From Capitulum mitella (lineage: Eukaryota > Arthropoda > Thecostraca > Pollicipedomorpha > Pollicipedidae): a stretch of DNA of 64,000 bases. Below, one piece after another: positions 21,301-39,977 of this stretch. Below the pieces are notes generated by a model. The model ran no database searches and was not told the DNA's origin. It saw nothing but the letters and a program-made list of their open reading frames with translations. The translations under genes and the position numbers were made by a program. The stretch lies in NCBI GenBank assembly GCA_030062745.1, contig CP099854.1, positions 7,652,014 to 7,716,013 on the forward strand. The letters run 5' to 3'. The number at the start of each line of letters is the position of its first letter. The first letter of the stretch is position 1.

Positions 21301-24300
21301 TATGCTGCAGTTTCTTTACAATGGGGCGGCGTAGTGTAGTGGTTACCATGCCCGCCTTGTGTTTGAAAGGTCCCCGGTTCGAGTCCGCGTAATAGCGGCA
21401 TTTTGCCGTCCCCGCGACAACCGGCGTAGGAGGTCGCGACGCGAAATGATCCTGGCAGTCGAGAGCTTCGTTAAATAACCCAATAACCAACTCGTCCCTT
21501 TACAAATATACATCAGATTATTTATACGAGCATATTCAAACTCACACGGCATGCTTTTGTTGTCAAACAGTAGCGAAGATGGCTTGAATGCTAGTGATGC
21601 TTAGTCACGTGCGTTTATCCCGACCTATCTTTGAAGGTAATTGTTTGTCACGAAGCTCGCGGGCTGTGACATTGAGCAAGAAGTGCATTTGGTGCTTCAA
21701 CAGTCGATAAAGGCCCTCCTGCGGCTCGCGCTGTTTGTGCATGCAATTTGTCGGCAGCTGCGGTGTACCTCTCCAGGCCACTGGAGCGCAACATTTGCCC
21801 AGAGAGTCGACAGCAGGGGCCGCTGTAGAAACGAGCAGAGGGCCACCAGAAATGCTAACGCGATGTTTCAGAGGAACCCTGAATTTGAACCGGAAGGGGT
21901 CTCTTCCGTGCTTAGGATAGGGGCTCAGCCCCTTGAGTCCCTCCCTCTGCCCCCGCCACTGATATTTAAGCGTCGACCAGTGGCTGGGTCCCACCTGGGT
22001 GAACACATTACGTCGCTATCTCTCGGTCTCAGATTCAGACGTTTATTAGAGCCATCCGCAAAAGGTTCGCGGCTATTACGACCTCTAGTCAAAAGTATTT
22101 GTCGTCTTGTAGCGCGGAAGGACGCGGCTTGGCGTCAAACTGATTCTGCTTCAGTGCATACAGCGTGTCAGGAGATGGGGCGTGTTTTTTTTTGTCAGGC
22201 GCATTTATTCTCACTACACGAGGGGCAGGATCAAGTCGACCCCTCTTGGGTTTTTTGGCAATGGCACCGAAATACCAACGCGATGTTTCTGAGTTTTCTT
22301 CGTAGACGAGTTCCTGTTATTTATACATCTTACGAGAATATTTCAAATCTGTGCCGTATCAGGTTGTCAGCCACAAAATGGGTTCAGTATGGAGTAGAAA
22401 CCTAATATTCGAATTTCTGCGATGACGGAATGAACGGCATTCGCCGTTGAGGTTTCCATACCGTTAAAGGATCGTTACAAATAAAGGTTTCATTGGATAT
22501 CTTTGTGGGTCAGTGATGAACCCTGACCTTATTTGTTTATTTATTTATTTACGTCATGGGATCATCCTCCAAACCTTAGCGAATGCCACAGGGGCTATTC
22601 TCGATCCCGAGTCATCACCTGTGAAGGGTACAAGAGGCAGAGACAGACACACAAGTACACTCGTCCACAAGTCAAGCTACTTAACTCTGTAAAAAGTAAA
22701 AAGGTGGGCTGTCACGTACGTTTGTCAAGATGTCGCAATCAGGTGCTGCTTCAGCTTGCGTCTGAACAGTTGAAAAGACATGTCAGCGATGTCTGGTGGC
22801 AATGTGTTAAACAAAAAGTTTAAACAAAAAGGCGGCGCGGTATACGAATTGCCTCTTTCCGGCAATCGAACCACGGATGCGAGGTAGGCTGAGCCTGGTA
22901 AAATGCCTGGAGGCCTGGTATGTCTCGCGTGATCCGCCCGTTCGCTGTTCAGACAGAACGATGCCACAAGGTGTTCTGGTTCGCCTGTACACCGGATCTT
23001 ATGAAGTAATGTCAGTGTCTGGTGCTCAAACGTGCTATGGGAAGGGAGCCAGCCCCGTTTTTCCCACACGGCCGAAATGCGCGCGTGTTTTCTTTTCCCG
23101 GACGACCTTATTTGGCCGTGCCCGTGAAAGTGTATTACACTGAGTTTGAGAATTCCCGAGCCGACGGCGTGATAACGCAATACAGTTCGCGTGACTGTGC
23201 ATACACATACACACAGACATCTATGCGCGTATGCACCTGCACATCTACGCACACACACACGCATACCTACGCACATGCTCATCTGCACACCGATAACTAC
23301 GCTTGCCTACTCACCTGGAGCCTTTCGTTTCTTGCGAAATGTCAGACCGTCGGCGGAAAAACGCCGTGGAAAGCCGCGGCCGCAATGATTCAGGAGCTGT
23401 CGAGGTGCTGGTGTAAAGTGCAGTCGGAGGACTAGAGCCACGAGCTACTGAGAGATATCAGCGTTAGTTCTAAAGCGGCGCTCGCAACAATGACCTCGAA
23501 ATCCGCTCTCGCCTGTTTCTCTGCTCCGAAGGTTTCCGATCGTTCGCTGAAATGCGTCGGAAAGACGTCAGGTGGTTCGGCGGCCGAGATGTGTAGGAAA
23601 AGCACGATATGCGTCGGCGAAACTTCGTGCATCGGAAAAGCGTGAGGTGCATCGGAAAGGCATGAGAAGGCATGGAGGCTGCGATGTGTGTGCAGGCATG
23701 AGATGCACCGGGGAACCAAATGTGTCGGGAAGGCAAGCCATGCGTCGGTAAGGCAAGGCATGAGATTGCTCGACGGCTGAGGTATATGAGCACGCTTGCG
23801 ACATCTCGGAAAGGCGTGGTTTGTGTCGGGAAAAGGCGAGACGATTCGGCGGCTGAAATGGGTCTGCGTGCCTGAGACGTGAATGCATCCATGAAACGGT
23901 GTCGGAAAGGACGTCATACGATTGGGTCGCGGAGAGGCGTCGGCATTCGACATGCCTGAGCCATGACGCACGATGTCAGCTCGCTGTCCGCGTCAGCCGT
24001 GGGCGTAATCTCTCGGGGGCTGCGGGGACATGCTCCCACAGTTTTTCAGAAGTGGGGATTTGTCCCCTCTGATTTGTAAGGCATTAAATGGGTATTTCCT
24101 ATCAGCGATACAGTTCCTTGAATTTTGGAATCTAAGGAAAGGGTTGCGAGATTATTTTTACCACCACCCATCCTACCTATCTTTAATGATGGCACTCAGC
24201 TGCCCCCCCAAAAAAAAACGAAGATATGAGCCTTGGTTACACCCATGACGTCATCTGACTGATGCCATCTCGCCGGCAGTGATGGACTGGCTGTGCCGCC

Positions 24301-39977: not shown

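Follow-up and report, generated by a model that had tools for sequence, protein, structure and literature searches.

The barnacle Capitulum mitella carries a gene for a Mab-21/cGAS-superfamily protein whose nucleotidyltransferase domain is split, rather than absent, by a 123-residue insert with three strongly hydrophobic segments, located at the turn of the β-hairpin that bears the third catalytic aspartate. The gene lies within a 64-kb stretch of genomic DNA (64,000 nucleotides, hereafter the window), where ten in-frame exons on the forward strand between positions 28928 and 39708 give an assembled translation of 665 residues. The Mab-21 family is already known, as is the layout in which an N-terminal anchor precedes the Mab-21 domain; what appears to be new is the hydrophobic block within the active-site hairpin.

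The reading frame is unbroken across all ten exons, and the introns between them are of the GT-AG type in eight of nine cases, the ninth having a GC donor after the exon with the third aspartate (33051-33052). Four predicted proteins served for comparison: one from Pollicipes pollicipes (LOC119111302, here P0001) and three from Amphibalanus (P0002, P0003 and isoform X2 of A. amphitrite LOC122377780, here P0004), with P0002 and P0003 being half models. P0001 aligned by tblastn to each of the ten exons, and two further exons upstream encode an N-terminal hydrophobic segment. The exons and the elements they encode are as follows.

26066..26212, + strand: first part of the N-terminal hydrophobic segment; 5′ boundary uncertain, candidate acceptor ending at 26065.
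26921..27058, + strand: putative N-terminal membrane segment continued, leading into a basic juxtamembrane stretch; P0001 residues 95-149 by tblastn, E 1.7e-14.
28928..29149, + strand: exon with GS (29024-29029) and D-A-D (29123-29131); 75% identity to P0001, E 3.5e-26.
29747..30088, + strand: end of the catalytic strand region and low-complexity linker; first part against P0001 E 1.4e-7, frame open.
30601..30770, + strand: core exon including VERVLPEDR; 60% identity to P0001, E 7e-15.
31253..31372, + strand: core exon; tblastn with P0001, E 1.7e-10.
32289..32475, + strand: strand GPAVTLKL (32314-32337) and, from hydropathy, hydrophobic segment 1 (about 32389-32463); tblastn E 6e-22 (P0001) and 2e-24 (P0002).
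32755..33050, + strand: hydrophobic segments 2 (about 32785-32859) and 3 (about 32887-32949), from hydropathy, and the third aspartate (32989-32991), from alignment; tblastn E 5e-36 (P0001) and 8e-35 (P0002).
33644..33800, + strand: core exon with CxC(x8)C(x3)H (33726-33773) and LWRYSFS; tblastn with P0001, E 4e-21.
34665..34808, + strand: core exon, C-terminal end RSYYLK; tblastn E 2e-17.
37256..37459, + strand: exon of the Mab-21 HhH/H2TH-like domain; tblastn E 1e-18, and PF20266 E 2.5e-15 in the assembled protein.
39553..39708, + strand: final exon with the stop codon (39706-39708); tblastn E 7e-17, the homologs stopping at the same residue.

A first-pass annotation made from the sequence had started this gene with exons at 24280-25657 and ended it at 39977, and both boundaries had to be revised. 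The coding sequence ends at 39708, as do those of P0001, P0002 and P0004 when aligned to the window, and position 39977 is where a differently phased open frame (39627-39977) stops. The exons at 24280-25657 were rejected as the gene start: the N-termini of P0001 and P0004, searched against positions 20000-29200, gave among the matches listed only chance-level or low-complexity matches there, and no Pfam domain was found in their joined translation (a hand-typed query). A likeness to CARD/death folds noted by eye was likewise given no match by Pfam. These three possible exons are open and spliceable, but comparison with Pfam and with the N-termini of the barnacle relatives gave nothing convincing, and they may be part of another gene or a fast-changing N-terminus. 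Within the 64-kb window, tblastn of P0001 and P0002 found no second copy of the gene.

The introns of the gene hold two diverged copies of a dispersed repeat (35497-36595 and 37770-38770; five aligned pieces 74-86% identical, spacing about 2.2 kb). A 64-base tandem duplication (1.9 copies, 31166-31287) spans the acceptor and the first bases of exon 31253.

Database tests upheld the family membership that had been proposed from the sequence. The 665-residue protein scored 52.2 bits against PF03281 (Mab-21) and 56.9 bits against PF20266 (Mab-21_C), where the Pfam gathering cut-off is 24.1 for each, and P0001, P0002 and P0004 likewise exceeded both cut-offs; P0003, an N-terminal half model, matched neither profile. 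Among solved structures, profile matches were obtained with cGLR1 (8gjy_A, E 3e-22), the best structure match of the barnacle protein, and with MB21D2 (7lt1_A, E 3e-7), in both cases covering the region after the insert. A Mab-21 fold with Mab-21_C, together with GS, DxD and the third aspartate, is common to the barnacle protein and the cGLRs (8gjy, 8gjw). The gene product is a member of the Mab-21/cGAS superfamily. The first 84 residues of the 665-residue model had no match to solved structures up to E 10, NCBIfam (models for bacteria and archaea) gave no match for P0004 or P0001, and the window had no Rfam matches at gathering scores.

The insert comprises residues 302-424, between L301 at the end of GPAVTLKL (residues 294-301) and G425 of the strand GDFVTAL, in which D426 is the third aspartate. 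Its three segments have mean Kyte-Doolittle hydropathies of 2.39, 2.61 and 2.29 (over 19 residues each), in agreement with the earlier description of two strands about 120 residues apart with three strongly hydrophobic segments between them. In the intact protein the PF03281 match is limited to profile positions 125-193 and starts exactly at the third aspartate. When the insert alone was cut in silico, the score rose to 62.9 bits and the match became continuous over positions 30-193; when the low-complexity linker alone was cut, the score was 53.0 bits and the match still ran from 125 to 193; and with both cut, the window protein scored 63.7 bits and P0001 54.0 bits. The window copy freed of insert and linker aligned through the junction, aspartate on aspartate, with 8gjy (E 3e-23) and with 7lt1 (E 2e-7), whose aligned region is without such an insert. 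The same copy aligned weakly (E 0.035), again aspartate on aspartate, with 4jlx and 4kb6, which we take to be pig cGAS, their PAVTLLI...VDIILAL lying against GPAVTLKL...GDFVTAL. The continuity of the Pfam match after cutting, together with the structure alignment across the junction, places the hydrophobic block at the hairpin turn, as the first-pass annotation had stated. For the insert by itself no Pfam family was found, and its best match to a solved structure (an acyl-protein thioesterase, E 0.34) was taken as chance. P0002 and P0004 also showed a weak MASE2 match that did not reach the cut-off (E about 0.04), and it was discarded as a chance effect of hydrophobicity.

Protein searches, covering in two cases the 7997 and 7999 candidates with the most words in common and in another 765 candidates, returned at least four relatives among the matches listed, all of them from barnacles and from two species; other Mab-21 relatives were likewise not among them. 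P0003 is 96-99% identical to P0004 in two aligned parts, and for P0002 the identity to P0004 is 99% in the final 175 residues and 87% in a longer stretch, the low-complexity linker included; we read P0002, P0003 and P0004 as a single Amphibalanus gene. P0002 bears the record name 'Dynein heavy chain', which seems to be an error; it resembles a split model of the Amphibalanus homolog and contains a long spurious RYSFSKV-type repeat, probably derived from a retained intron. Conservation was assessed with the window protein, P0001 and P0004, representing three barnacle species. Identity between species was 56-63% in the insert proper (303-412), 57-73% in the core parts and 19-33% in the linker; within the insert conservation was uneven, at 65-76% identity in segment 2 and 55-71% in segment 1, but only 43-47% in segment 3 and its loop. 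Around the third aspartate 19 of 19 residues are identical in the three species.

The same hydrophobic block, at the same place, is present in the Pollicipes and Amphibalanus records, with hydropathies of 2.5-2.8 for the three segments in P0001 and P0004. Two further barnacle species thus carry the insertion in their protein records, where the segments are included rather than intronic, and this argues against a gene-model artefact, in which the hydrophobic stretch would be an intron or the locus a pseudogene. The GC donor at 33051 in place of GT would fit such an error, as would the fact that the homologs used for comparison are predictions in their turn. However, the frame is open and of coding-type composition (GC3 of 0.97 and 0.90 in the exons that carry the insert, against 0.82-1.00 for the remaining eight), and the intron between the two insert-bearing exons has stops in all three frames. 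Because both of these exons also encode core strands, skipping either one would destroy the core, and the in-frame internal splices that we enumerated within them use sites that look weak by eye. We regard an artefact as very improbable.

The first-pass annotation had the catalytic hairpin threaded through a membrane. The position of the block at the turn stands, but the topology has to be restricted. In the Mab-21 family the two hairpin strands pair in one sheet, and paired strands must share one face of the membrane, so the number of crossings has to be even and three full crossings, which would separate the strands, are impossible; of the three segments, one has to be either re-entrant or interfacial. 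Segments 1 and 2 are joined by a loop (SWPVRK...) with a net charge of +2 in all three species, and the loop joining segments 2 and 3 has −1 or −2 in all three. By the positive-inside rule, under which positively charged loops are cytosolic, the 1-2 loop would lie in the cytosol and the 2-3 loop outside, making segments 2 and 3 a crossing hairpin. The charges suggest that segment 1 is re-entrant, and near its middle is an invariant proline (P334).

Hydropathy and loop charges both agree with the putative membrane insertion of the internal segments. The competing arrangement has no even-crossing module: either all three segments cross and the two halves of the core come apart, or they form a soluble or peripheral helical bundle. 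The three segments are indeed similar in hydropathy, and a structure prediction of P0001, for which P0001 was aligned with P0004 and with translations of ten individual exons from the window, shows three continuous helices, with segment 1 as one helix (488-513 of P0001). This model is of low confidence (pLDDT 47.1, pTM 0.27), too poor to rely on, and did not build the third-aspartate strand; it contradicts a re-entrant segment 1 only weakly. Against the competing arrangement, the core is conserved on either side of the insert, the domain match becomes continuous once the insert is cut, the loop charges are consistent with an even crossing number, and values of 2.3-2.8 over 19 residues are high for a soluble bundle. 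An uneven or soluble arrangement is accordingly improbable in our estimation.

An N-terminal anchor before the Mab-21 domain is indicated by hydropathy only, with top values of 2.37 for the best 19 residues across exons 26066..26212 and 26921..27058, 2.02 for P0001 and 2.46 for P0004. The homology of the first of these exons is weak by itself (P0001 residues 80-108 against 26147-26233, 38% identity, E 0.11 in a sensitive tblastn search). The internal insertion had been set apart from relatives with an N-terminal anchor; the internal block is real, but it does not stand in place of such an anchor, since an N-terminal hydrophobic segment is also present. Amphibalanus P0004 and P0003 begin with a signal-peptide-like N-terminus (by eye and hydropathy), and in the full model a region rich in Ser, Thr and Pro comes between this and the N-terminal anchor; a start of the signal-peptide type is absent from P0001. 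From the Amphibalanus N-terminus only, the N-terminus is probably outside and the core cytosolic.

The GS, the D-A-D and the third aspartate all remain, as had been noted at the outset. VGSL, GADADF and YGDFVTAL occur in each of the three full proteins, WRYSFS and SYYLKT in all three barnacle species, and the catalytic carboxylates are D66, D68 and D426 in the 665-residue numbering. The third aspartate is backed by alignment with 8gjy, 7lt1, 4jlx and 4kb6, and GS and DxD are assigned by motif; the GS/DxD part on its own had no solved-structure match, and its assignment rests on motif and conservation. In the published cGLR survey, the search motif is h[QT]GS X8-20 [DE]h[DE]h X50-90 h[DE]h and the final rule is G[S/G] and [E/D]h[E/D] X50-90 [E/D] (PMC9980059). 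With our own choice of hydrophobic letters, none of five sequences (the window model and P0001-P0004) matched the search motif. The departures are a valine before GS instead of Q/T, a GS-to-DxD spacer of 31 instead of 8-20 residues, and a DxD-to-Asp gap of 357-499 instead of 50-90, and on this last spacing (357-499) the final rule did not match either. The residues themselves, G[S/G] and three acidic catalytic positions, are present.

These observations bear on whether the protein is an enzyme or a scaffold. It could be a membrane-anchored pseudoenzyme in which the fold is kept for contacts, for example with a TBK1/IKK-epsilon-like kinase, and in which the insert is tolerated and catalysis no longer matters. 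Two reports offer precedent for this: three Mab21 proteins of Litopenaeus vannamei did not bind dsDNA or dsRNA, yielded no detectable cGAMP and acted on IKK-epsilon through contact-dependent activation (PMC12928593), and ITPRIP, likewise of Mab-21 fold, has been reported to sit at the outer nuclear membrane and to bind IP3 receptors (PMC6550788). The deviating GS context and spacings point the same way. Against this, the three catalytic carboxylates, GS, SYxxKT and WRxSFS are kept in all three species, and not one of the 19 residues around the third aspartate has changed. We consider a scaffold a serious prospect that falls somewhat short of an even chance, and an active membrane-tethered enzyme would be slightly ahead of it.

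The reading that we prefer, to which we give an even chance, is that of a nucleotidyltransferase tethered to the membrane, with a membrane module that would hold, and might also tune, its active-site hairpin, and, jointly with this, of a membrane-embedded Mab-21/cGAS branch common to barnacles. The departures from the cGLR motif, the uneven conservation within the insert and the shrimp Mab21 results weigh against it. In this model, where membrane insertion, topology, the cytosolic side, catalytic activity, product and coupling are all predicted, the N-terminal anchor would tether the protein with its N-terminus outside and the nucleotidyltransferase core facing the cytosol. A second membrane module would be inserted at the turn of the β-hairpin bearing the third catalytic aspartate, with a proline kink making segment 1 a re-entrant hairpin and with a single transmembrane hairpin made up of segments 2 and 3, an arrangement that would keep both catalytic strands on the cytosolic side while the module holds, and may tune, the active-site hairpin. 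A bolder version would make the protein a one-piece transmembrane receptor nucleotidyltransferase, in which signals at the membrane or across it would shift the hairpin, directly order or disorder the third-aspartate strand and so turn second-messenger synthesis at the membrane face on or off, with no separate nucleic-acid ligand; we think this unlikely.

Compared with known members of the superfamily, the barnacle protein differs in several respects. cGAS is soluble and has a zinc ribbon after its SFS motif. A zinc ribbon of this type was not seen in the barnacle protein, where a different cluster, CxC(x8)C(x3)H, lies instead in the loop before WRYSFS in all three species examined and is possibly a metal site placed differently from that of cGAS. 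Relative to the cGLRs, the barnacle protein adds both the N-terminal hydrophobic segment and the hydrophobic block within the catalytic hairpin. ITPRIP-family proteins have an N-terminal transmembrane segment followed by the Mab-21 domain, and this layout is shared by the barnacle protein as far as hydropathy indicates. In the portion of the ITPRIP report used here, ITPRIP, ITPRIPL1 and ITPRIPL2 are described as membrane proteins with a transmembrane segment, a predicted one in ITPRIP, and an internal membrane insert is unmentioned (PMC6550788). The cGLR survey of Li et al. gives 87% of cGLRs as lacking an appended domain, with some having ankyrin, TPR or death domains (PMC9980059). The shrimp proteins LvMab21-1/2/3 are, like the barnacle protein, crustacean members of the Mab21 family, and their Mab21 domains are reported to span 295-357 residues, so that by our own arithmetic an insert of this kind could hardly be accommodated; the main text of that report uses neither 'transmembrane' nor 'insertion' (PMC12928593). 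In the excerpted text of a eukaryote-wide family analysis, remarks on transmembrane segments concern STING and not the nucleotidyltransferases (PMC10732462). Searches of the open-licence literature found no earlier description of a membrane insert inside a Mab-21 domain, and nothing on barnacle Mab-21 or on three homolog gene identifiers.

If the protein is active, nucleotide second-messenger synthesis would be tied to the membrane through the active site itself; if it is inactive, the Mab-21 fold would tolerate a membrane module at a constrained hairpin. As the spacing rule behind the published cGLR catalogue (PMC9980059) does not fit these proteins, a membrane-embedded branch may have been overlooked.

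Elsewhere in the window, two related open frames on the reverse strand (52326-52874 and 60342-60911) have in common a KKLALAKLLLLPA.KKG stretch followed by repeats of Gly-Tyr-Asp type (GYGDGGYGD...); they are probably paralogous structural proteins of the cuticle or cement type, the name being a guess. About 23 copies of TAGGT are found at 20240-20351, in the interior of the window, an array of the arthropod telomere-type unit TTAGG.
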